DNA of 64,000 nt. Origin: Voacanga thouarsii. Lineage: Eukaryota > Streptophyta > Magnoliopsida > Gentianales > Apocynaceae. The first letter of the stretch is position 1, and the number at the start of each line of letters is the position of its first letter. The stretch is from NCBI GenBank assembly GCA_026120185.1, contig JANUWF010002008.1, forward strand, positions 783,501 to 847,500, in the 5' to 3' direction. The translations under genes and the position numbers were made by a program. This document shows positions 5,791 through 57,000 of the stretch, in pieces. The notes under the pieces were generated by a model, which was not told the origin of the DNA, searched no databases, and saw nothing but the letters and a program-made list of their open reading frames with translations.

Positions 5791-6800
5791 TTAGCATCTA
5801 AGGTTGGGTCATATTAACTCAACCAGGATTCAGAAGTTAATCCATGATGGGCCCTTAGGCTTATTAAGATTAGAAAGTTGGCCTCAGTGTGAATATTACC
5901 TTATGAGAAAAATGACCAAAAGGTCGTTCACCCAAAAGGCTGATAGAGTCAAGGAGATATTGGGTCTTATTCATACTGATGTATGTGGTTCTTTGTCTAC
6001 TCAAGCTAGAGGGGGCTTTGATTACTTCATCACTTTCACGGATGATTGTTCAAGGTTTGGTTATGTCTATCTGATGAGGCACAAGTCTGACTTTTTTGAC
6101 AAGTTTAAAGAGTTTAAGGTTGAAGTGGAGCGTCGGACAAGTAATCTGATCAAAACCTTACGATCGGATCATGGTGGAGAATACCTCCTCGGAGAGTTTA
6201 ATGATTATATGGTACATCATGAAATAATATCCCAACTATCTGCGCCGGGTACACCCCAACAGAATGGAGTAGCTGAGAGAAGGAACAGGACATTAATGGA
6301 AATGGTCCGAAACATAATGTTTTATGCTACTCTTCCGGTCTCTTTTTAGAGATATGCCTTAGAAACTGCGACATATATTCTGAACTTAGTGGCTTTCAAG
6401 TCAGTACCTAGGACACCCTATAAGATGAGGACTGGAGTAAGTCAAATCTAAATCATCTCAGGATATGGGGTTGTCCAACTTATGCACTGATCAAGGGAGA
6501 CAAGTTAGAACCAAGATTAAAGTTATGCTACTTTGTTGGGTATCCAAAGGGGACAAAATGAGGTTACTTTTATCATCCCAATGAGCAAAAAGTACTGGTA
6601 AGTTCTAATGCTAGATACTTGGAGGATGATCAAAGTACTTCCACCAAAGGTTCAACAAGGTTGGAACTTGAGGAGAAGTTATTTTTGGAATCAACTTCTT
6701 CAGACCTGATTATGGAACAAGAAGAGGCACAGCCTCAAGAACTTGTACAAACGAAGCTTCGTCATAGTGGGAGGATATCTAGAGTTTCAGAAAGATGGAC
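5790..6800 (+). pseudogene. copia integrase pseudogene
   Basis: The longest open piece (5804-6349) covers the integrase N-terminus and catalytic core. The zinc-binding part has both histidines (RLGHI, KLIHDG) but only one of the paired cysteines: the usual CxxC is CEYY. The core keeps all three acidic catalytic residues, in HTDVCG, RSDHGGEY and GVAERRNRTL. A TAG at 6347-6349 ends the frame. The C-terminal part continues in broken frames with CYFVGYPKGTK near 6526-6560. Integrase inserts the cDNA into the genome; this copy is inactive. Confidence 0.88.
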
Positions 6801-22400: not shown

Positions 22401-25400
22401 CTATCCTATCTAAGTGGTGTTTGAAACAACGGATATTGATTCTTGTTTATCCCAGAGATCAAAATATTAGACCTAGGGCTTTTATATTTATTTATTTCAC
22501 AGTCATATGATTTTAAATGCTCTAAAGCAAACTCCGATTTTGGGTAGTTTGGCTAACAACTGCTTACTTTCAGGCTTGGTACAACATAAAGTTTATAAAT
22601 GTATTAAATTAATAAGGATAAACTAAGATGTCAATCATGCGGAGCCAAATAAAAGGCATTAGATAGTCATCTTCATACTGAAGAAGCAATGAACCAAGTA
22701 GCACATGAATAGATTTAAATGAGTGCAATCAAGTTCTGGGGAGTCTACTAAAGATTTGGATCACCCTCTCTCCACAATATTTCTTTGAGTGGGCCAATAT
22801 TGTTGTTACGATATGTTACACTTATTGCTAACTTATAAGGTTGGGCATACTATGATAACATCTGGGTTCTAGAAACAGCATTAACAGATGTACAAAGAGA
22901 CCAAAGGGCTACATTGATGTAGTTGTTAATTTACTTTCTTGAGGATGTCTCATTTTCTTTCTTGTGTTTCTTCTTTTATGTAAAATGTCCTGTGTTATGA
23001 CTACTTTCAGTCATTAGACAAAAGCAGTAACAATTATTTTCATAAAGGTGTGGGAGAATGAGCTCCAGTTAACAAAACAAGCAAATGAACTCTGTCCTGC
23101 AGGAAATACTGGTCAAGCAAAGAATTCAGCCAAACTAGTGTACAAGCAAAGAATTAACAACTGTCGCAATCAAACTCATGATAGCATACCTATGATTACA
23201 TTTGCAGGTACTTGGTTGTAATAAAACTGGTTGGTTTTTACCATGAAAAAGAACTCTAGCGTATTCATGTTAAAAGATATCCACTTGATGAAGAACTTTT
23301 CAAATTTCAAAGGCAAAATGTAGTTCTAAAAACATCCACAGCCAACATTCAAATACTGCTCTTTGCAAACACATTATCTTCTCCCAAGTGAGTGAAAAAG
23401 AGAGAGCTCACAGGGAAATTTATTGCATATATCAATATGTAGTTGATCCTTATCAACCAACCAAAGACATATAACATGCCCAATTAAGCAAAAGCCAACC
23501 AAGAATTATCTATTGGACACATTCCAAAACAAAAATACAAAACACATAAAAAAGCAGATAGTTTTGTATTAGGAAGGAAAGATAACTGACATATTCGCAT
23601 CATGATATAGATAGGAAATTGGAAAAGAGTTGAGGTGGAGAGACGGGGATTAGCTTTTGAGGATTCATACCTAGATCATTGACACAAACATCTTGAGATA
23701 TTCCACTCTTTGAGATCTTTTCCAGCAGAGCTGATGGATCAATCTTACTTGTGTCATCCAAACGAAGGCGCTGAGAGATTAAATTTTTCTTAGAAATCCA
23801 TTCAACCAATTTCCAGATTAAGATTCAACAATAAACTATTACGTATTACCTTGTAGACTTCAGCCGTGGAGCAAGCTTGTGGAGGTTTTATGAGAATCAT
23901 TGGAATGTCATCAGGAATTGGTGAAGGAATATCTTGAACAACCTGAACAACAAAAATCATTAACTTTTTCTAAGCTGATATGCCATCTGGCATATAGTTG
24001 ATACCATGACAAGGGAGCAAATATTGCAACTAATGAAGGTATACTTTTTTTGGTTGTAAAAGAAAACAAACTTGAGAAGCATCTTATAGAATGCTGAAAG
24101 AAAGACACCTTCAAATTCTTGATAAATGGATTTAATTTATTCCATGCACTGAAGAAAGACATTTTCAGATTCTTGATGAATGGATTTATATATTCCATGC
24201 ATTATGGAAGCAGAAAAGGCTGATAATTTGGATGAACTGGAAACATCTGAAAGCCAATTCTATTTACCACCCAGTTCATATCTTTGTTTCATGTGCTTGA
24301 GGGAGGAATTATATCTCTTCAATCTCGGAATACCACCTAACTGTGGCCAGAGAGTAAAATAGGTTGGAAAGAAAGGGTCTTAAGGTCTGATTGGATGACA
24401 TAAATCATGGTTGATCCTGCCACCAGTAGAAATTGGTGCATTTAATTAAACTTTCTTCTAAGAAAGGATATTCTTATATAAATTAAATTTTAAGCTGCAA
24501 GACTACAACAGCGGGAAAAAAAAAAATGAAAGCCCTTCTTTTATTTAAGGTCCTCATAATGTCCATCTCATTTGCATTGTTGAAATTTGCCTACATTTTG
24601 GTATGTGCATAGGCACTTGAATGCATGCATCCAACAATATTTACTTTGCTTTGTAAAAACCGTGACACAATTTGTTCACTATCCAAACTAACATGAAAAC
24701 AAACCCACTGCCACCCAGTATTAATCAAGCACTTGGTCGATCTTCAGATGCAGTAGTGCAGTTTCTCTTTTATTTGCATGTGGTTATTATTCTACTTGAA
24801 GACACAACCTTGAGGCTGAGTAATTTATCGTAAAACACTCAATTGCACACCATATGAGTATTTACCATTGGATAAATTAATTGAATTATTGAAGACTTCT
24901 TTATTTTTGTTTCAGGCATATTTGGCCAAGATGGTAAGCTAAACCATTTTAAGGAAGAAAAAATCTTTGGACAACATGAAACTTTTAGGCAGTTGTAAAC
25001 CTTGGAAGGCTAGATAGATAAATGAAATGCTATAATTCTTTGTAGGGATGTGGAGAACATGGGAAATCATGATAAGAAGAACCATTGCTCTGCTGGGCTA
25101 AGGAAAAGACACATACATCACCTCTACCTGTACAATAAGCTGCTCCACGGGAGAAAAAAAATGGAACATCTGAACCAATCTCACCAGACCATTCTTGGAG
25201 ATCCTTTTCACTCACAATGCCACCAGAGAATTCATTTGCTGCCCATAAAGCAGTTGCAGCATTGCTGCTACCGCCACCTAACCCAGCCCCAGCAGGCACT
25301 TTTTTATCAAGATGAACCTTTCCACAAAACCAAATAGAGATTAGCGCAAACTCCGGTTGAGGAGTATGTCCAAATGATATTGTCAAATATACAAGTTAGT

Positions 25401-27003: not shown

Positions 27004-27042
27004 TTATTAACTCCTCTAAATATACTCTGAATATTTAATTCT
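26526..27042. other. Upstream region of CMK up to the copia insertion
   Basis: Only 517 bp separate the CMK start codon from the left LTR of copia element 2. This interval must hold the core promoter and 5' UTR of CMK. No clear TATA box was picked out. The distal end carries an ATT/TAT microsatellite (26967-27004). Confidence 0.5.
26967..27004 (+). repeat. (TAT)n microsatellite
   Basis: About twelve consecutive TAT units lie about 440 bp upstream of the CMK start codon and about 40 bp before copia element 2. Confidence 0.92.
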
Positions 27043-27398
27043 TGTTATGAATTATTGGAATCTCCATTAATTAGTGGAGGCTCCACTAATTATGGATTTA
27101 TGTGAATAATTAGAGAAGATTTTTATGGATGTCCACCATTTAGTGGAGACACCACTAATTAAGATTAGTGAAGGATGATGTATGCCATGATGTAATCCAC
27201 TAATTAGAGCTCTATAAATAGAGCTATTCTCTAAGCTTGTAATACACCATTATTTTGTGAAAGAAAGATTAGTGAAAGAAAGATTAGAGAAAATTGTGAG
27301 AGAAAAGAAAGAGAAAAATTCTTGTGCAAAGAATAGTTAGAATTTTCTTAGTGTGTAATGTGTAGATTTTATTCTAACACTACCTTAATTTTATAACA
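27043..27398 (+). repeat. 5' LTR of copia element 2
   Basis: This 356-bp repeat starts TGTT and ends AACA. It contains repeated short inverted motifs built on TTAGTGG and CCACTAAT, and a TATA box at 27213-27220. It is 350 of 356 identical to 31932-32287 by direct comparison. Confidence 0.96.
27213..27220 (+). promoter_or_regulatory. TATA box of the LTR promoter
   Basis: TATAAATA lies mid-LTR between two copies of AGAGCT. The same box is present at 32102-32109 in the right LTR, where it could drive transcription out of the element into the right flank. Confidence 0.75.
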
Positions 27399-27400
27399 CG

Positions 27401-27413
27401 TTATCAGCACGAG
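27401..27413 (+). other. Primer binding site of copia element 2
   Basis: TTATCAGCACGAG follows the LTR end by two bases. It shares the TATCAG core with methionine-tRNA-type sites but is otherwise different, as in other short-LTR copia elements. Confidence 0.6.
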
Positions 27414-27429
27414 TCTCTGCCATTATTAA

Positions 27430-28030
27430 AGCCAGAAGACAGGTACGCATTTATTGATCTCGCTAAATTCGAATTTGTAGCCCTTGATATTTCGAAAAAA
27501 AAATTTATATGTCATACGTAAATGCATCTAAATGCTAAAAAAAAGAGATCCATATGTCATGTGGATAAAAAGAAAGATTTGACCATCCGAAGATGGTCGT
27601 ACTACCCACTCGCACGGTATGAATGGTTGCACCCGAAGTTGCAAGATTGTAAAACCGTGAACTCCGTGATGTATAAAATTACATCTTAGTTAAAAATTTT
27701 ACGGAGAAAAAGTTATCGATGAAGTTATATTGGAGAAGACATTCTCCACTTTTCATGTCCTACAATAACAATATCGAGAAAAAGGGTATCCAAAATTGAC
27801 AGACTTTAACATGAGTTATTATTGAGAAATCATGAAGCCGGATGAATCGGCTCAACAAAGACTCCCAGTGAATGTTATTGGCTCCAGCGAAGCCATCGTT
27901 ATAGTCGTAGTTGTGGCGAGTGGTCGTGGTTATGGTCATGGACACACTCGATATTTTCCTTATCACAGAGAAATACTGGCCACATGAAGTGGAACAGAAA
28001 AGATAATAAGGGAAAAAGATATTTCCATTA
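27430..28030 (+). pseudogene. gag remnant of copia element 2
   Basis: Broken frames retain copia gag blocks: near 27455 a stretch reading LAKFEFVALDISKKNY, near 27580-27680 the HPK region, and near 27740-27790 a segment with SYNNNIEKKGYP. Around 27890-27940 is the arginine and glycine rich stretch that precedes the zinc knuckle. The middle is deleted and frames shift repeatedly. The knuckle and everything up to the RT linker are missing, replaced by the RWP-RK insert. Confidence 0.7.
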
Positions 28031-28189
28031 ATAATAAGCATCACATCTTTTATTCATATCACTAGTGTTCATATGAACTTGAGGATACATGCTTATAGTT
28101 GCTCTTTTGTAATTGAGTCGACAAATGTAAGATGAAGGTTTGTAATTGTTCTTTTTCAATATTTACATTAGAGGAAGACAAACAATTAG

Positions 28190-29409
28190 TAATTATGGAC
28201 TTCGAGCTCCTCTTTTTCGACATCCTCCTCCTTTTCTTTCCCCTTTGAGCCAACGATCGAGACTAGCAGCAGAATTAGCTGTAAAATTACTGCGAAATGA
28301 GTCTTGAGATTTTATGATCTCCTTAAGTTTATTATAATTAAATTTCTTATTATATTTGGCCTTGAAGCATGCTTGTCTCAATTTCTGTGTTTGATCCTCT
28401 AACTGCGTATTAGGACTTTCTTCCACCAACTCGTTTTTCACATTCCAGATATCGCAATGGCTTCTTTCAACTTCTTCTCACCCATATGTCCTCCTTCTTC
28501 TTTATTTTGCATCTCCTGTAAATCGAAGTGATATCATCGGTTATTTACTTATAAATCTTTCATAGTTTCATACTTGCAAATTATAAGTATGTATGAGAGA
28601 GAACCTGAACATTCTTGATTATGGTCTCCAAGCTCACCAATTTCCTGTGAGGCCATCGACGAATTCCTAACTCCCTACATCTTTTCTTGAGACGGGTTAT
28701 GCCAATATTCAGCTTCTTTGGTCGCACTCTTGATTGGTAGGTAAAAGTACTGCGAAATTGTTTCTCTTGATAGTGTCTGGGAGTTATTGCCCTTCTTCTC
28801 TCTCTGCCTCTTAATCATCTTCTTCTCCCCAGGAATTTTGTCTGCAATAATATCTTGAACTTCGATATTATGCATTTCATGAGTACTTACTCCGACTTCG
28901 TTGCCAAGACCACTCATTATTTCTCCTAGAAAAAGAAAATAATATCAGTAAAGGTAATACCATTCAAAATCCATGTTTAAATGTATAATAACCTGGAAAC
29001 ATATTCTGTCTTTGTTCAAAATCCATTAGAGAGTAGAAAGGATCATGCACAAGCATATCCTCATTCAAAGGAATAGCATCAAGAGGAACAGTATCAAAAG
29101 CAGTCTCTTGTAGGGGCAGATCAACTTGGTCCAAAACAGTATGTTCAAAACTTCCACTGATTTACATCAAAAACAAACCAAAAGAGAGTTTAATTTCATT
29201 ATCAAGCATACTAAAAACAAATGGAAGCCCTCAAAGGTATCTCACCTGAAATTAGGAGGAAGCAGTTGGTTTGGAAAGGAAAACATATCAAAATCTTCTG
29301 GCGTTCGAATTAGCCGAAGCGGTTAGTTTGGAAAGGAAAATACATCAACATCTCGCTGTGAAACCGAGTCAAAATTTGACCATGTCTCAAATGAATTACG
29401 AGTCTCCAT
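28190..29409 (-). pseudogene. RWP-RK (RKD-type) transcription factor gene copy inside copia element 2
   Basis: On the minus strand four exons can be traced: 29409-29246, 29156-28993, 28925-28605 and 28515 to about 28195, separated by GT-AG introns. The first three join in one frame except for a TAA at about codon 29 of exon 1. Exon 3 enters the RWP-RK DNA-binding domain (ETISQYFYLPIKSATKE). A one-base insertion near 28713 then shifts the frame, in which the domain continues (LKKRCRELGIRRWPHRKL). Exon 4 has further frameshifts, then the RKD-like tail QLEDQTQKLRQACFKAKY. RKD proteins are plant transcription factors of egg cell and early embryo programmes. The copy retains introns and lies antisense to the retroelement, so it came from DNA or an antisense transcript, not spliced mRNA. 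It is a pseudogene. Confidence 0.88.
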
Positions 29410-29472
29410 ATCTCGCTTTGTGATTTTTGTTTTTGATGTTTACTAATGACTCGATAACCGAGATATATATCG

Positions 29473-29476
<4 letters not shown>

Positions 29477-29508
<32 letters not shown>
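29477..29508 (+). repeat. (AT)16 microsatellite in the gene cargo
   Basis: Sixteen AT units lie about 70 bp upstream of the RWP-RK copy's start codon (minus strand), in what would be its leader or promoter. A purine-rich stretch follows at 29511-29590. Confidence 0.95.
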
Positions 29509-29510
<2 letters not shown>

Positions 29511-29679
29511 GTATGAGGAAGAAGAAGAGGTAGATGGTAGGTAGAGGGTCGGAGGAGAAGAAAAGACAAGAGAGGAAGATGAAAAGTCGGTATCGGGAAG
29601 AGTGAAAAAAAAAGAGATATTTTTCTTGGCATTTCCTGCTTGTCATCATTTTCTTATATTTCTTTTCTTATTCTTTTGT

Positions 29680-31118
29680 GAAATCATTATTCCCTAAATT
29701 AGGGGGAGAACAGAAACAGTACAAGAAAGATCGTGATTGGACAACATCATTAAATTATCTTGATCCGCATACAAGCGCGTGAGAACTTGAAGTTCAAAAG
29801 ATAATTCATTTGTAAAGCATTGCAAATCAAATGCCAGACGCTTTTGTTGACTCTAGAAGAGTAACAAAATATCATATGCCAGCTATAAATGCTCCTATTC
29901 TAATTGAAGTTCCAACAGAACAAAAGATACATATAGCTGCTGAGCCAAAAGCATGCCAAAAGCATGGCCGACCTCTTAGTTCTAAAGATAAAAATCCTCG
30001 AAAGAAGAGAGGATTAATGGTCCAGATGATCATATTAAAGCAAAGAATGATAAAAACCAAGAGAAAACTTATGACAAAGAACCAGACATAAATGAAAGTA
30101 ACACTGAAATTTCTATCCATTATACCACTTCCGGTAGAAGTTGGAATCGGATAGAAACAATTATTGATCATATGTTTGCATATAATATCTCTTGATGTTA
30201 TACAAGATAGTGATGATCCTAAACCAATATCAGTTGATGAATGTCGGCATAGAAAAGATTGGCTGCAATGGAAAGATGCGATTCAATCGGAGTTAAATGC
30301 ACTGACAAAATGTGAAGTCTTCGGACCTGCAGTCCGAACACCAGAAGGTGTAAAACTTGTTGGCTACAAATGGATATTTGTGCGAAAGTGCAATGAAAAT
30401 AGTGAAATCGTTCGATATAAAGTGCGATTAGTAGCCCAAGGTTTTTCACAAAGACCAGGTATTGATTATGATGAAACTTATTCTCCTGTTGTTGATGCTA
30501 TTACACTCCGATATCTTATCAGTTTGGCAGTACATGAAAAGATAGATATGCGCCTATTAGATGTTGCCACTACTTACTTGTATGGAAATTTAGAAAATGA
30601 TGTTTACATGAAAATCCCCGAAAGATTTCATATGCCTGAAACATATAAATATTATCCTCGTGAAAATTACTCCATCAAGTTGCAGAAATCATTACATGGC
30701 CTGAAGCCATCTGGGCGCATGTGGTTCAATTATCTTAGTGAATATTGATTGAAAGCGAGATTTAAAATGACCAGGTATGTCCATGCATTTTTATTAAGAA
30801 ATCTGGTTCTAAATTTGTGATATTAACTATATATGTTGATGATTTTAATCTTATTAGAACTCTTGAAGAGCTCCAAGAAACAATTGATTATTCGACATTA
30901 AGGATGGTCGTAAAAGTATATTTTGCCTTGGTTTACAAATTGAATATTTGGCAAGTAGAACATTTATTCAACATATACAGCAAAAGTTCTAAAAAGATTT
31001 GACATGGACAAAGCACATCCATTGAGTATTACAATGATCGTCCTGTCCTTTTCGACCTCAAGAAGATATTGAAGAACTTTTTGGTCCTGAAGTATCATAT
31101 CTCAGTGCAATTGGTGCA
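29680..31118 (+). pseudogene. Reverse transcriptase region of copia element 2
   Basis: Coding similarity resumes near 29683 with FPKLGGE, then QMPDAFVDSRRVTKYHMPAINA at about 29828-29895 and the GRP...KDKNPRKKRG linker (29965-30010). Reverse transcriptase proper follows (open 30164-30748) with YKWIFVRK, VRLVAQGFSQRPGIDYDETYSPVV and LHGLKPSGRMW. A stop and frameshift occur near 30746. The catalytic motif is retained as LTIYVDDFNLI near 30823. The frame is broken again to 31118. The domain is recognisable but cannot be translated as one protein. Confidence 0.88.
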
Positions 31119-31877
31119 TTGATATATCTTTCTAATAATACACGACCTGATATTGCTTTTACTGTCAATTTATTAGCAAGATTTAGTTCTTCACTAACAC
31201 GACGACATTGGAATGGAATTAAACAAGTCCTTCGATATCTCCAAGGTACAATTGATCTCGGATTATTTTATTCAAATAAAACCAGTCCAACATTGATAGG
31301 TTATGCAGATACTGGTTATTTATCTGATCCACATAAAGCACGTTCTCAAACGGGCTATCTATTTACATGTGAAAATACTGCTATATCATGGCATTCTACG
31401 AAACAATTTATAGCAGCTACTTCTTCAAATCATGATGACATTATAGCCATTCATGAAGCAAGTCGAGAATGTGTATGGCTAAGATCCATGATTCATTATA
31501 TCCGAGAAAGTTGTGGATTATCATCAATCAAAGATATTCCAACTCCTCTTTATGAAGACAATGCAGCTTGCATAGCTCAATTACGAGGAGGATATATTAA
31601 AGGAGATCGGACAAAACATATTTCACCAAAATTCTTCTTTACTCATGAACTCCAGAAGAAATGTGAAATTGATGTGCTACAAATTCGGTCATGTGACAAC
31701 CTCGCAGATATTTTCACGAAGACTTTACCGACTGCAACATTTGAAAAGTTGAGATATAAAATCGGTATGCGTCGGTTTAAAAGGAATCATCTTATCAGGG
31801 GGAGTAATAAACAGACCTATAGAATAGTGTACTCTTTTTTCTTCACTAGATTTTTTTCCCACTGGGTTTTTATCTAG
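31119..31877 (+). pseudogene. RNase H region of copia element 2
   Basis: A 252-codon open stretch covers the RT thumb (YLSNNTRPDIAF, RHWNGIKQVLRYLQGT) and RNase H (GYADTGYL, AISWHSTKQ, YEDNAACIAQL, NLADIFTKTLP). The usual acidic residue in S-S-N-H-A-E-I-I is aspartate here (SSNHDDIIAIHEA), a conservative swap at a catalytic position. The reading frame runs past the normal pol end towards the right LTR. Without a functional RT in frame it is not expected to act. Confidence 0.85.
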
Positions 31878-31931
31878 TAAGGTTTTAACAAGGCATATTC
31901 TTTATGTAATGGATGGACATTCAATGGGGAG

Positions 31932-32287
31932 TGTTATGAATTATTGGAATCTTCATTAATTAGTGGAGGCTCCACTAATTATGGATTTATGTGAATAATT
32001 AGAGAAGATTTTTATGGATGTCCACCATTTAGTGGAGACACCACTAATTAAGATTAGTGGAAGATGATGTATGCCATGATGTAATCCACTAATTAGAGCT
32101 CTATAAATAGAGCTATTCTCTAAGCTTGTAATACACCATTATTTTGTGAAAGAAAGATTAGTGAAAGAAAGATTAGAGAAAATTGTGAGAGAAAAGAAAG
32201 AGAAAAATTCTTGTGCAAAGAATAGTTAGAATTTTCTTAGTGTGTAGTGTATAGATTTTATTCTAACACTACCCTAATTTTATAACA
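31932..32287 (+). repeat. 3' LTR of copia element 2
   Basis: This is the 356-bp partner of 27043-27398, preceded by the purine-rich AATGGGGAG at 31923-31931 that serves as polypurine tract. It is followed by the target duplication ATTCT. Confidence 0.96.
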
Positions 32288-33356
32288 ATTCTCTCTATAT
32301 TTTAAATAATCAATAGAAAAAAAGATATTGAGTAAAAAGAAAGGCTCAAGCTGCAGCTAGAGCAGCAGAGTCGACTTGGCTCGTCCTAACCCAAATATGA
32401 AAAACCTATGGGCTATTGAACTAAGGCTAGATTGAACTCTAATCCAAGGCAGCTTGGCAATATTGTGAAAGCACCTTTCTTCGTCTCAAAGCATTTTCTT
32501 TTGAGTGATCAGTCAGGGAATGTTTAGTAACTCAAATAAGTATTTAAAATTAATTAATTACTTATTTTATTAAATTTTTTTATAACAGATAATATTAAAT
32601 ATTTAATTAATTAAATATATTTGATAATACATTTTTATTATTATTTAATTAATTAAAACATATTAAAATTATATTATAACTTCGAAGGTGGAAGGTAGTC
32701 TTGGACAACAAACGACACAAGATTGTTTCTTATGCAAATGATGCCCCTATCTCATGCACGAGATGCAATTCATTGGTCTTGGAGAAAAAAATTGTTCTCC
32801 TTTCTCTATATTAGTGCTGCACTTCTATTACCATAAATCTATTTCTCTCCTCATCTAAATGCCACTGACACATCAAAGAAGAAACAAATGAAAGGCAAAA
32901 TGAATTTATGAGATTTGTCTTCATATCATGACAAAATCTCAAACCAATTCATCGGTCAAATCCATTGTTGTCTAGATTCTATTTAAACTTTGTCAATATT
33001 TCTTGTAATTAGAATGTTGGTGAAATATATTGGAGAGAAACCAAAATAAAAAGCTAGAAAGGGGAGAAAGAGGAGAAGGAGAATGGAGAGAGGGGAGATG
33101 GGTTGTGGCCTAATGGGTTTTTTGGGCGGGGTAGTGGAGGGGGGAAGGGGAGGAGAGAGGATGATGATCAAAAGACTAAAAAGAGATAGAAGACTTTGGA
33201 GGAGGGAACAATTTTGATGAAGGGGAGGAAAGAGATTGAAGAGACAATAGAAATTTGGTAGAAATGTAGGATCCACTACAAGAGAAAACATTTGATGCAC
33301 ACAAATTTATTGACTAAAAAGGATAAACATGTCATTTAAGTAAATATTGCTATAGG
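32288..33356. other. Spacer between copia element 2 and the nested block
   Basis: AT-rich DNA with no recognisable gene. A purine-rich segment at 33045-33250 yields a leucine, proline and serine rich frame on the other strand that is compositional only. No transposon ends were recognised. Confidence 0.5.
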
Positions 33357-39955: not shown

Positions 39956-39992
39956 CTGAGTTTTGTTTCTTTTGCAGGATTGAATTAATGAA

Positions 39993-42644
39993 ATGGATTC
40001 TTCAAAAAGTAGTTCAACTCCTCAATCAGCTACTCCATTAGATAACAGTTCATGTGGGAGGCGTAAGTCTGACATTACTTGGAATCATGTAACTCAAAAG
40101 GTCATTGAGGGAAAGAATGTTTTGACTTGTTTGTATTGTGGTTTTATTGGGAAAGGTGGTGGAATATATAGAATGAAACAACATTTAGCTGGAAAAAAAG
40201 GACAAGTTAGGCCTTGCCCACTTGTTCCACATGATGTGAAATTTCAAATGGAAAATTCTCTTGATGACATTGTTAGAAAAAAAAGAGAGACTCAAGAAAA
40301 CTTTGATTCTGAAAATCCTTATGGACCTAGTGTAGTAAACTTTGAAGGTGATGAAGATGTTCAAGAAATACCTCATCCGAATGATACTAGACCTCGTGAC
40401 CACTTGAAACTTAATGCATCTCAAAAAGGAAAAAGAAGGAATATAGGACAGATAAATGATTATTTTGCACCAAGAACAACTCCTGGCTCTCAACCAACTT
40501 TAAAAAGTGTGCTTGCAAATAAATAGGCGGTACATAGATCACATATGGAAGTTGCAAAATTTTTTTATGATGCTTGTTTGCCCATTAATGCTGTGAATTC
40601 TATCTACTTCCAACGGATGTTTGATGCTGCATGTGCTATAGGGCCAGGGTTTAAAGTTCCTTCTTATCATCAATTGCGAGTTTCTTTGTTGAATGATGCA
40701 AAAAAAGAAGTGCAGTTATTTGTTGATTCTATGAAAAATGAGTGGAAAAAACTTGGTTGCACTATAATGGGTGATGGTTGGACTGATAATAGACAAAGGA
40801 CATTGATTAACTTTCTTGTTTATTGTCCTCGTGGAATTATTTTCTTAAAATCTGTTGATGTCTCTAATGTTGTGAAAAATGCACAAACTTTGTTTGAGTT
40901 ATTTAAAGAAGTTATTGAATGGGTTGGTCCAGCTAATGTTGTTCATATGGTGACTGACAATGGGGCAAATTATGTGGCTGCTGGAAAATTAGTTAATAAT
41001 GCTTATCCATCAATCAATTGGTCTCCATGTGCAGCTCATTGCTTGAATCTAGTGTTGCGGGATGTTAGTAAATTGAGTCATGTACAAATTCTTGCTGAGA
41101 AGGGTTCTACAATTATTAAATTTGTGTATAATCATGGTTTTTGGTTGAGTTGGTTGAGAAAAAGAAAAGATTGGACTGAAATCATTCGTCCAGGTGCTAC
41201 TAGGTTTGCTACCACTTTTATTGCTCTTAATAATGTCTATCAGCATATGCATGACTTGAGGGCTTTGGTGACTTGTAAGGAGTTTTGTGATTCTAAGCTT
41301 TATAGAGAAAATAAGACAAAGGAAGTGGTTGCAATCATTTTGGATAACAAGTTTTGGAATGATTGCCATGTTATTGTGAAAGTAGTAGAGCATTTGATGC
41401 GTTTGTTGCGTATTGTGGATGGTGATAAAAAGCCATCTTTAGGTTATGTATTTGATGGCATGCATAGGGCACGTAAGGCAATTAAAATGCTATTCAATCA
41501 AAGGAAAAGGTATTACAAGGTGTATACTGATATCATTAAAAGAAGATGGGATATGCATTTGAAGAAAAGTATACATGCTACTACATATTGGTTGAACCCT
41601 GCCTTTCAATATGACCGAGAAAGCTTTTGTGATAAACCTTATGTCATGGATGGTCTTATTGAGGTTGTTACTAAAAAGACCAAAGAGGGGAGTAAAATAC
41701 TACAAGAGAGTATTCCATTCAAAGACCAATTAAATAGTTTTGGTTCTGATGCTTCAAAAGAGACATACAAAACTTTTCCACCTGGTAATATTATTTCTTT
41801 CACTTTTATTTTTTATGTTAGTTATTAAATTGTTATTATATCATTTTGTTTCATTATTGTTAATTTAATTATTAATTTTATTTCTTTTTAATAGATGAGT
41901 GGTGGAAAATGTTTGGTTATGGAGCACCAAATTTAAGGAAGTTGGCAATTCGTATTTTAGGGCAAACAAGTAGTTCATCTGGATGTGAAAGAAATTGGAG
42001 TGTGTTTGAAAGGATACACACTAAAAAGAGAAATAGATTGGAACATCAAAGACTTAGTGGCCTTGTCTTTGTGCATTACAACTTGAAGTTGAAAAATAGG
42101 TAAATTTCTTGTTGAATTATTCTTTTGAATGTTTGTTTGATACAAGTATAATATATAACTTATGATATGATAATAGGTTGTTGTCTAAAGAGAAGAGTTT
42201 TGATCCAATTGATTATGAAAGTATAGATACTACCGACTATTGGATTCTTGAGGATATGGAGGATGAGCCTTCAAGTAACATTGTTGAAGAAGTAGAGCAA
42301 ATTTTGTATGAACAGCTTGAGGAACCAAGGTTACAAAGGCTACGTCGACGTGAAAGAGAAGGTTAGTCTTTCTTCTTTTTTTTTTTTCTACTATTGATCA
42401 AAATTACTTATAATATACTAGTATTATATTTTTTACTCTTATATATCTACTTAAATTGTTTGTAGATGACAATGATGGTGATGATTTTGTGGTGGAAGAT
42501 ATTGGTGATGACATTGATCTTTCAAGAATGGATCAATTTGCATTTGAGTCACAACTATTTGATATTGATGTTGGAGTTGCAAGCACAAGTGGGCCATCCA
42601 ACAACGAGGATTTTGATCATGAAAGTTGGCCTAGAGGAATTTGA
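39993..42644 (+). pseudogene. hAT transposase, four exons, one nonsense codon
   Basis: Exons 39993-41784, 41895-42099, 42177-42361 and 42466-42644 join through GT-AG introns to 787 in-frame codons including the terminal stop. The only defect is TAG at codon 178 (40524-40526). Order: BED-type zinc finger about residues 25-75 (TCLYCGF, MKQHLAG), a DUF659-like block with GDGWTDNRQRT, the second acidic region VTDNGANY, the AHCLNLVL motif, and the C-terminal hAT dimerisation domain with SGCERNWSVFERIHTKKRNRL. The tail is acidic. Transposases of this class cut and paste their own element via an RNase H-like fold. The surviving frame around one stop suggests recent activity or a readthrough allele; a start at 40545 would leave 603 codons lacking the zinc finger. 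Confidence 0.9.
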
Positions 42645-54052: not shown

Positions 54053-57000
54053 GACCGATCATGGATTAACATAAAGGACCATTTAGGTGACGAATATAAT
54101 AAGGGTTTGCATACCTTTATAGAATTTACATTGAGAGACAAACATAATAGAGCTAAAATCTAATGTCCATGTATGAAGTGTTAGAATAGGTACTTTTATA
54201 ATGCAATAGAAATCAAACAACATTGTCAAATGTGGGGTTTCATGCGTTGGTACAAAAAATGGAGCGCTCATGGAGAAACATACGTACCTTCTAGCAGTAC
54301 AAATATTAATATTTCTTCACTAGACAATGTACAAAAGGATGATATAGTTGGGCTGGTTCAAGATGCTGTTGGGATAAATGAGAACTTGAATGCAAATGAA
54401 GAACCTGAAGATTTGAGAGAGATAATTAAACTATTAGAAGAGGTGAATGTGGAGTTGTATCTAAGTTGTACCAAAATTTCTTCTTTGTCATTTATCATGA
54501 GATTGTTACACTTGAAAGTACTCAATGGGTGGTCGAATAAGTCCGTTGACACGCAACTTGAGCTTTTAACAAATGCTTTCAATGAGATGGACCTGAAGAT
54601 TGCTAAAAATTACTATAAGGCTAGTAAGATTACGAATGTGCTAGGAATGGAATGTAAAGTATGGGATACTTGTCCAAATAATTGTATGATATATAGGGGA
54701 AAATGAGGTAATTATTCATTGTAGGGTGTATAACGCTCCAAGGTATAAAAAAGGGTAGTACCGTTGCATGTACGTGTGCTAGGTATTTTCCGTTATCTCT
54801 AAGGTTGAAGTGATTATTCATGTCTCGCAAAACTACTTCTCTTATGAGGTGGCATGAAGAAGGTTGTGTGAAAATGGAGTCTATAGGCACCCAACTGATT
54901 CAAGGGCCTAGAGAAAGTTTGGTGAATTGCATCTAGAATTTGTAGGGGATTATCGGAATATAAGGCTTGATCTGGCCTTAGGTGGATTTTGTCCATTTTC
55001 AAATATTCACATACCATATAGTACTGGGCCTGTTGTCTTAATACCGTACAATTTGCCACCTTGGCTATGAATGAAGTAACCATATTTTATATTGTCAACT
55101 ATTATTGATGGGCCTAAGAGTCCGAGGAACAAGATTGATGCTTTTATGCAACCATTGATCGAAGAGTTGAAAGAATTATGACGTGACAGTGTGATGACAT
55201 ATGATGCAGAAGCAAAAGAGATGTTTCATTTGTGTAAAGCTGTTATGTGGACTATAAGTGGTTTTTCTGCTTATGGAAATCTGTCTAGTTATAGTGCTCA
55301 CACTGAGAGAGTTTTTCCGATTTGCAGTGTCAATTGCTTAGCTTACCGCTTTCCTAATGAAGGTAAATATTACTTCTTACACCATCATAGATTTCTTGAC
55401 TAGTCACCTAAGCTCCATAGGGATAAATTGTCTTTCTATGGTGGAATGGAAACATGACAAGCACCAACAAGGTGCACGAGGGCTAAAATATTGACACAAC
55501 TTGGGGGTTGTTTAACAGAATATAAAGTAGATGATGTGAAAATCAGAATCCAGCCTGATTATGAATGAAAGTTTGGCATAAATTCGTTCAATTGGAAGAA
55601 GAAAAGTATATTTTGGGAGTTGCCATATTAGGAAAGCAATTTGATGAGGCACAATCTTGGTCCGATGCATATAGAGAAATTTTTTTCGAACAATCTATTG
55701 TATACAATATTAGATGATAGTAGTTCTTTGAAAGATAACTTGAAAGCTCGTAAGGACTTGCAAATTATGAATATTAGAAAGTCTTTACACCCCATTTTAA
55801 AGCCTTCCAGAACTGGATATAGTTTGCCACTAGCTCCTTATACAATGAGTAAGTCTGAAGTTAAAATTTTCTTGATAGTTTTGAAAGAATTGAGAGTTCT
55901 TGATGGCTACTGTTCTAATATTTCTCGATGGGTAAACATGAGAAGAAAGACTTTGGGAGATTTGAAAAGTCATGATTCTTACATCTTACTCCAACAATTA
56001 ATCTCATTAGCTGCTCGCACAACTTTGCCAAGGAATGTTGTACAATTATTGATTGAGATTGCTTCATGTTTTAGACAGTTGTGTTCGAAGGTTAACAAGG
56101 AGAGACATCTTGAGCAGCTTCAAGACCAATTTGCAATTACAATATGTCTTATTGAGAAGACTTTCATCATAAGTTTCTTTGACATAATGGAACATTTACC
56201 GATACATTTGGCAAAAGATGCATTGTTAGCTGGCTCAGTACAATGTCAATGGATGTTTCAAGTTGAAAGGTACTTAAAAACACTAAAGTGTTACGTACGT
56301 AATCGTGCTCGACCGGAAGGTTCGATTGCCAGTGGGTATTTAATGGAGGTATGTATGACATTTGTGTCAAGATATCTAGATGATGTTGAGAGTAAAGAGG
56401 ATAGGCCACCGAGATACGTTGATGATGACTATGAGATGGGTAAATCAATTGGAAAGGGAACTAATGTAATATTTGATCATACTACCTTGATGCAAGCACA
56501 CCGGTGGATTCTAGCCAACTCCGACATTCTTAAACCATATAGAGAGTTAGTTTTCTTTTCAATTGCTTATATATAATTTTATGCATTTATGTGTATATAT
56601 GATCATATTAAACTCTCACATGTGACATATACAGCTTTCATATGTCCGTTATAAATAGAGAGTATCTGAGAGCTCGGTTACATGACAAACAACGTATTCA
56701 CTCTCAAACGTTTCACACTTGGCTCAAGTGTTATATAAGTTATGCTTCCATGTGAAAAATGCTAAACAATTATTTCAAACATATTAAGTTGGTGGAACTT
56801 ATATTATTATTGCCCGTGTGCTTCATCCATCTCTCTATATTATTGAAGTTAGAAAGCTTGCTAGTGGTCCTTTCAATCAAGGAAAGCGCTATAATGCATG
56901 CAACGTGAATAGGTTTCGATTTTGTACAATAACCTACGAGGCTAATATGTCTACTCAGAATTCTAGAGTTATATGTAGAGCTAACACTATGAGTTACGCT

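Follow-up and report, generated by a model that had tools for sequence, protein, structure and literature searches.

In the window, by which we mean the whole 64,000-nucleotide stretch of Voacanga thouarsii DNA analyzed here, an RKD-type transcription factor gene lies antisense, with its introns, inside a Ty1/copia LTR retrotransposon. The element family has spread this gene, introns included and backward, to many places in the genome. Our preferred reading, to which we give a probability of roughly 0.78, is that the window holds a decayed copy of a non-autonomous copia family that was spread in trans and goes back to one antisense RKD capture, with the RKD gene riding along as a tolerated hitch-hiker.

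The copia element and its antisense RKD gene

The window element has 356-bp LTRs with TG...CA ends and is flanked on both sides by the 5-bp target duplication ATTCT (27038..27042 on the left and the matching right copy at 32288..32292, after the 3' LTR, both read on the plus strand). The 5' LTR (27043..27398, +, TGTTATGAAT...TTATAACA) and the 3' LTR (31932..32287, +) form a pair with 6 mismatches and no gaps. Downstream of the 5' LTR we find a primer-binding region, leader and decayed gag fragment (27399..28016, +), delimited by comparison with a full-complement relative described below, then the captured RKD genomic segment on the minus strand (outer limits 28017..29673). Copia homology resumes at 29674 with the C-terminal end of integrase and continues through reverse transcriptase to RNase H (29674..31931, +), the last of these named by position without a profile match, and a purine-rich tract precedes the 3' LTR. 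The pol frames are broken in the window copy. The Pfam profile RVT_2 (copia-type reverse transcriptase) scores 111.4 bits within 30155-30748 of the window and 148.3 bits in the family copy L021.

The sequence-only reading of this DNA had proposed an RKD-type gene, antisense and intron-containing, inside a copia element, with four exons and GT-AG introns that keep phase at the first two junctions. Profiles, exon alignment and the breakpoints confirm this, and the third junction proved to be in phase too. On the minus strand the Pfam RWP-RK profile was matched within 28814-28584 at 51.6 bits against a cut-off of 29.3, covering profile positions 19-49 of 49; the initial part of the domain lies in another frame because the window copy is frameshifted near 28725, and positions 2-49 are covered in other copies in the genome. 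All features of the gene were placed on the minus strand by exon alignment. Exon 1 (29409-29246), which varies in length among copies and has an in-frame stop at codon 29 in the window copy, is separated by intron 1 (29157..29245, GT-AG) from exon 2 (29156-28993). Intron 2 (28926..28992, GT-AG) is followed by exon 3 with the RWP-RK domain (28925-28605), which measures 321 nt in the window copy, one base more than the 320 nt found in 54 of 57 family rows. Beyond intron 3 (28516..28604, GT-AG), exon 4, with the motif RQACFKAKY, runs from 28515 to an approximate end at ~28060 and is frameshifted in the window copy. The stop at codon 29, the extra base in exon 3 and the frameshifts in exon 4 make the window copy a pseudogene. 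The gene had been placed at 28190-29409; the 5' end of that span stands, but its 3' end was too short, as exon 4 reaches ~28060 and the captured segment ~28017. Upstream of the RKD ATG the segment includes ~240 bp of TA-rich 5' flank (29410..29650, -) that aligns partly to the region upstream of the RKD copy L018 and is possibly a promoter.

Across the family, exon 1 lengths of 107, 164, 200 and 215 nt each occur in at least 3 copies, a pattern that looks like an in-frame tandem repeat inside the coding sequence.

Several other features are present in the window. A host ORF at 15160-17106 matches Catharanthus at 88% identity and named Rubiaceae at 75-80%, which probably places the plant in Apocynaceae. 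A GHMP kinase exon at 25030-25395 (-, 44.8 bits), which we take to be probably from the plastid isoprenoid gene IspE, marks a resident host gene near the element. A DUF659 frame at 39984-41828 (184 bits) is presumably the remnant of a hAT-type DNA transposon, and a DUF4218 frame, a domain that often accompanies CACTA-type transposons, is found at 55632-56576 (136 bits).

RKD sequence in the place of protease and integrase

Beside the RKD element at locus L023 lies a relative whose LTRs are 91-92% identical to those of the RKD element and in which RKD is absent. It has a 388-codon gag ORF (Retrotran_gag_2, PF14223, 30.1 bits against a cut-off of 27), a 454-codon ORF before the reverse transcriptase that we read as protease plus integrase by motif rather than by profile, and reverse transcriptase regions that in this copy no longer have intact frames. 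Set against this relative, the window loses copia homology at 28016, close to the nucleocapsid end of gag, and regains it at 29674, so that ~1.7 kb comprising the gag end, protease and integrase has been swapped for ~1.65 kb of RKD. The proposal that the gene replaces protease and integrase is thus borne out, and a search with the protease/integrase ORF gave no match inside the window element or inside 19 further RKD elements; the only matches near RKD elements belonged to neighboring elements in L020 and L023. Elsewhere in the window, a separate copia element has left part of an integrase at 5795-6349 (rve, 33.2 bits), for which the RKD element gave no DNA match.

Matches to gag within the RKD elements are fragmentary, least so in L019. 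The last gag match falls at residue 290 of the relative's 388-residue gag, beside the junction, in 10 of 20 elements including the window, at residue 298 in L026, 285 in L019 and 268 in seven elements, and L011 has none. With gag fragmentary and protease and integrase missing, the RKD element looks non-autonomous and presumably moved in trans, although the one full-complement relative read has a broken reverse transcriptase region of its own.

An amplified family with common junctions

A Pfam RWP-RK search of the source genome (1,345,666,469 bases in 1,848 contigs) returned 3,618 first-look candidates, of which 150 were scored; all 150 exceeded the cut-off and had no stop within the match. Among eight RWP-RK loci examined first, six match the element and two differ. 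One of the two, the RWP-RK gene L001, has no match to the RKD element, and the other, the RKD-like gene L002, matches it only in short and simple-repeat stretches, sharing with its coding sequence, besides simple repeats, 148 nt at 68% and 48 nt at 79%. We then took 20 RWP-RK places, each with 10 kb of sequence; six of these coincide with the six initial element loci. The same copia-RKD element was present at 19, the exception being L018.

Across these 19 flanked copies the RKD segment is ~80-97% identical, exons and introns alike. Continuous alignment crosses the RKD-to-pol junction in every one of them and the gag-to-RKD junction in 18, L011 being without that part; just inside the left junction, L010, L013, L025 and L027 have ~100 extra bases. 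Both LTRs were found in 16 copies, with K between the LTRs from 0.008 to 0.151. A perfect 5-bp target duplication flanks 11 of these 16, in a scan that tried several end positions, and is absent from the other 5. A further 40 gene-only pieces showed 80-97% identity except for L047 (G000:C1160:1250133-1251573), a divergent RKD copy with stops at 74-78%. Since copies differ by up to ~20% from the window copy, the capture was not recent, and the common gag and pol junctions point to a single capture; this rests on the 19 flanked loci and the window, the 40 gene-only pieces and 6 others having been taken without flanks.

Searching the genome at the DNA level with the RKD segment yielded 2,650 first-look candidates; every one of the 40 scored, the window among them, is an RKD copy, with 95-100% identity along the main match. 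The capture seen by the sequence-only reading therefore stands, but what it took for a single curious insertion is one copy of an amplified family (19 of 20 flanked loci, 40 of 40 scored DNA matches). We put the copia-RKD family at no fewer than 58 rows plus the further places from this DNA search. One 24-mer of the RWP-RK core, which all 58 aligned copies contain with no more than 2 mismatches, has 2,636 matches in the genome (1,322 forward and 1,314 reverse, against 0 and 0 for the reversed-pattern control), a count that takes in a second RKD-derived repeat and host genes besides the copia family. A search with the LTR returned 2,500 first-look candidates, 40 of which were scored at 97-100% identity, a measure by which RKD elements and their relatives are indistinguishable.

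Genomic origin of the RKD segment and survival of its introns

The flanked locus that departs from the rest, L018 (G000:C2:1962900-1972899), is an RKD copy around which no LTR, gag or pol was found in 10 kb. It is ~75% identical to the element RKD, has stops and decayed splice sites, and its homology to the captured segment extends from 28045 to ~29650 of the window. Alignment of the introns, which had been suggested as a check of genomic origin, showed that L018 matches all three, together with part of the 5' flank. Inclusion of 5' flank means that a genomic segment was taken up rather than a cDNA, and capture of a spliced cDNA is ruled out by the presence of three introns. Regarding the parent gene, which was to be sought in the same genome, a related copy outside LTR elements was found in L018, but a functional parent was not, the nearest copy outside LTR elements with flanks read being L018 itself, decayed and only ~75% identical. 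L018 may be a relic of the parent or, because many RKD-derived sequences exist in this genome, may itself be a repeat copy.

Translated in full, L022 has its best matches among dicot RKD/RWP-RK proteins, led by Fraxinus (43% over 90% of the query) and Cornus (41% over 90%), and the best protein match to exon 3 alone is 72%. In a 42-row tree, which contained RKD proteins and no NLP proteins, the element RKD (L022) pairs with L018 (100/99) and then with the Catharanthus roseus RKD (100/98). In these comparisons the element protein falls with RKD proteins across most of its length.

The RKD exons run antisense to the element strand in every one of the 19 flanked copies. Over 60 aligned rows, L018 and L047 included, GT-AG is retained at intron 1 in 55, at intron 2 in 53 and at intron 3 in 46. 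The orientation suggests how the introns would survive: with RKD antisense to the element, splice signals fall on the wrong strand of the genomic RNA. Antisense intron-tagged reporters rely on the same logic of introns passing through retrotransposition.

A second RKD-derived repeat

A protein search with the Catharanthus RKD (6,356 first-look candidates, 123 scored, 176 matches) also uncovered RKD sequence of another kind. Among the matches listed, many are unbroken across the exon 3/4 boundary, and most of these have stops. One such copy, L076 (G000:C1837:965300-966700), matches introns 1 and 2 and lacks intron 3 exactly; its RKD homology ends at the same place in exon 4 as that of L077 (G000:C57:2818950-2819900), with unrelated flanks beyond. 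When L076 was used as a DNA query, 1,960 first-look candidates were returned and all 40 scored matched at 85-100%, the query included, so that the listed members of this repeat are L076, L077 and 38 further places. At least two routes have thus amplified RKD sequence in this genome. The second repeat was considered as a source of the copia RKD and rejected, since L076 is without intron 3 and its homology ends inside exon 4. The span G000:C198:1601242-1604347 probably holds a tandem array of RKD-derived sequence, with six exact matches to the RWP-RK core on one strand at a spacing of 616-617 bases.

Coding state, selection and alternative explanations

We counted a copy as open when it had an ATG, GT-AG at all introns and no stop before codon 336. 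Six of the 58 family rows are open by this measure (L021, L022, L028, L042, L043 and L056), L043 with a late stop and L021 broken in a first alignment and open in a second with exon 1 placed differently. The 58 rows had been picked by the RWP-RK domain profile; when six copies were chosen for their DNA similarity to the window, two of them (L074 and L075) proved to be open over 365 codons and all four exons. From the analyses that follow, L018 and L047 were dropped as non-element or unplaced rows. L009, split by an insertion, was left out of later gene alignments, and L027, in which exon 2 is missing, was left out of the omega and exon-length analyses.

These copies bear on the foremost alternative to a tolerated hitch-hiker, namely that RKD is an accessory gene whose protein helps the element, for example by activating the LTR or by an egg-cell or embryo state that makes insertions heritable, and has been kept for that. 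We regard this as unlikely, though several observations speak for it. The gene was complete at capture and came with part of its 5' flank, and open copies occur in more than one subfamily (L021, L022, L028, L042 and L056) as well as in two of the six drawn by DNA likeness. Against it, 52 of the 58 rows fail the openness measure.

To characterize selection, we counted substitutions along a tree of 57 element rows and set them beside a context-matched expectation. For the whole coding sequence omega is 0.78 on inner branches (z -2.35), which would favor an accessory role, but the tips (0.83, z -3.21) are as low, which points to the domain-based sampling. Exon 3, the part by which the rows were chosen, gave 0.49 on tips and 0.54 on inner branches (z -2.75). 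Constraint of that size on the inner branches is unexpected for a pure hitch-hiker, in a sample that was itself chosen by this domain. Outside exon 3 the tips are at 1.00 (854 nonsynonymous and 283 synonymous substitutions), indicating that copies decay neutrally, and the inner branches, at 0.86 (z -1.23), cannot be distinguished from 1, which counts against the accessory gene. An apparent case for strong purifying selection from pairwise ratios (0.44-0.59 in the true frame) was rejected, as introns treated as codons gave 0.46-0.99 and the test is thus uninformative.

Stop codons and length changes gave a similarly divided picture. On deep inner branches 1 stop was gained against 6.3 expected, and outside exon 3 the figures were 1 and 4.2, as an accessory gene would predict; the counts for shifted frames were 10 against 10.6 and 7 against 11.1. 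However, introns read as codons over three frames were also short of stops on deep branches (3 against ~8.6), so that the expectation may run high and part of the deficit may be calibration error. Length changes were taken from the tree, a gap-coding indel count being confounded by rare insertions. Multiples of three made up 6 of 7 deep-branch changes in exons and 0 of 4 in introns, 9 of 15 and 1 of 6 on branches with two or three tips, and 19 of 54 and 4 of 25 on tips. Both deep changes in exon 2 are in frame (+3 and +9) and favor the accessory gene, whereas five of the seven deep exon changes lie in exon 1 and resemble gains or losses of tandem-repeat units, one of them out of frame. Collectively these data are a weak and not decisive indication that source copies remained coding. 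A more specific form of the accessory reading, in which an element-encoded RKD expressed from the captured 5' flank in the egg cell or early embryo would promote element transcription or heritable insertion, seems to us still more doubtful. If it were true, an accessory RKD would have let an element without protease and integrase carry a transcription factor gene to very many places.

Rather less probable again is a silencing role, by which LTR-driven transcription would produce both RKD-antisense RNA and small RNAs, and host RKD genes would be dampened. The uniform antisense orientation of the flanked copies and their large number would suit such a role, but the nearest non-LTR RKD copy with flanks read, at only 75% identity, would be a poor target for silencing in trans, and L002 shares with the element just the two short coding stretches given above. 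We attach practically no weight to the idea that there was no capture, and that a resident RKD gene was flanked or invaded by LTR sequences or an open frame arose by chance: the existence of L018 outside LTRs is all that speaks for it, the recurrence of this segment at 19 further places, bounded by the same gag and pol junctions, and the target duplications contradict a resident gene, and the RWP-RK profile and gene structure exclude a chance match.

Taken together, we favor the following course for the family. A genomic RKD locus, with part of its 5' flank, four exons and three introns, would have taken the place of ~1.7 kb of a copia element, a stretch that began at the nucleocapsid end of gag and included protease and integrase, in a single capture that, to judge from the common junctions, founded the family. 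Its antisense introns would go unrecognized in the genomic RNA and so pass through reverse transcription. The resulting element, with LTRs, primer site and reverse transcriptase and without protease or integrase, would owe its spread in trans to full-complement relatives whose LTRs match its own. Once inserted, copies would decay neutrally, as the tips outside exon 3 show, while source copies may have kept the reading frame open under weak constraint; four-exon copies that are still open persist. The RKD gene would most likely be a tolerated hitch-hiker with, at most, occasional expression from the captured 5' flank.

Relation to known gene-carrying elements

The copia-RKD element is a gene-carrying LTR retrotransposon, with a cellular gene inside it that has been copied with the element to new sites. 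Among other LTR elements, maize Bs1 is gene-transducing, and Grande, RIRE2 and Retand are Gypsy elements. Additional ORFs in antisense orientation are known from plant LTR retrotransposons including Grande (gene23), RIRE2, Retand and PvRetro13 (PMC7264820), and as in these the extra gene here is antisense to gag-pol and present in most family copies. Their ORFs are located after pol and before the 3' LTR, and no host-gene origin is seen for them in the part of that review compared here (PMC7264820). Unlike the Grande-type ORFs, the gene described here is a recognizable host transcription factor gene with introns and replaces protease and integrase.

Genes caught by LTR elements have been reported from rice, sorghum and maize, and in maize at least 189 captures account for the gene fragments carried by 425 intact LTR elements, that is, few copies each (PMC3726574, PMC2774510). 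The RKD element resembles these in that cellular sequence has entered an LTR element; the portions of those reports compared describe no complete intron-containing gene at high copy number (PMC3726574, PMC2774510). Orchid Gypsy elements carry an AlkB-type demethylase, and like them the RKD element has a host-like domain fixed in an LTR-element lineage (PMC9289625). The same study screened 121 angiosperm genomes and retained 15 extra domains, all in Gypsy and none in Copia elements; it also found a B3 transcription factor domain in elements of Aegilops tauschii (PMC9289625). The RKD carrier, in contrast, is a Copia element, and RWP-RK is not named among the domains in the available part of that account (PMC9289625).

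For the gene family, a parallel comes from pearl millet, where RWP-RK genes overlap intact LTR elements or lie near LTR elements, the family reportedly expanded along with an early LTR expansion, and ten of its genes are heat-responsive (PMC10011142). RWP-RK genes are tied to LTR elements in both plants, but a single high-copy copia family with an antisense, intron-containing RKD gene, as found here, is not described for that grass in the account compared, which does not give the orientation, introns or RKD subfamily of the millet genes (PMC10011142). In the open literature, searched by title and the start of the abstract, we found no description of a copia element carrying an RKD gene. Gene-carrying LTR retrotransposons and LTR-associated RWP-RK expansion are therefore already known, and what sets the present family apart is the copia carrier, the position in the place of protease and integrase, the complete intron-containing transcription factor gene and the high number of copies.

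The RKD group is tied to egg-cell identity and somatic embryogenesis (PMC10114336, PMC6090715). In the family described here, a regulatory gene with introns and some promoter-side sequence has survived repeated retrotransposition, most simply through its antisense placement, so that retrotransposons can disperse transcription factor genes without a spliced intermediate. For annotation this carries a warning, as what is counted as RWP-RK genes in such genomes can be transposons. Its many copies, some of which are open, make the plant a natural test of whether an element-borne regulator is expressed, silenced or co-opted.
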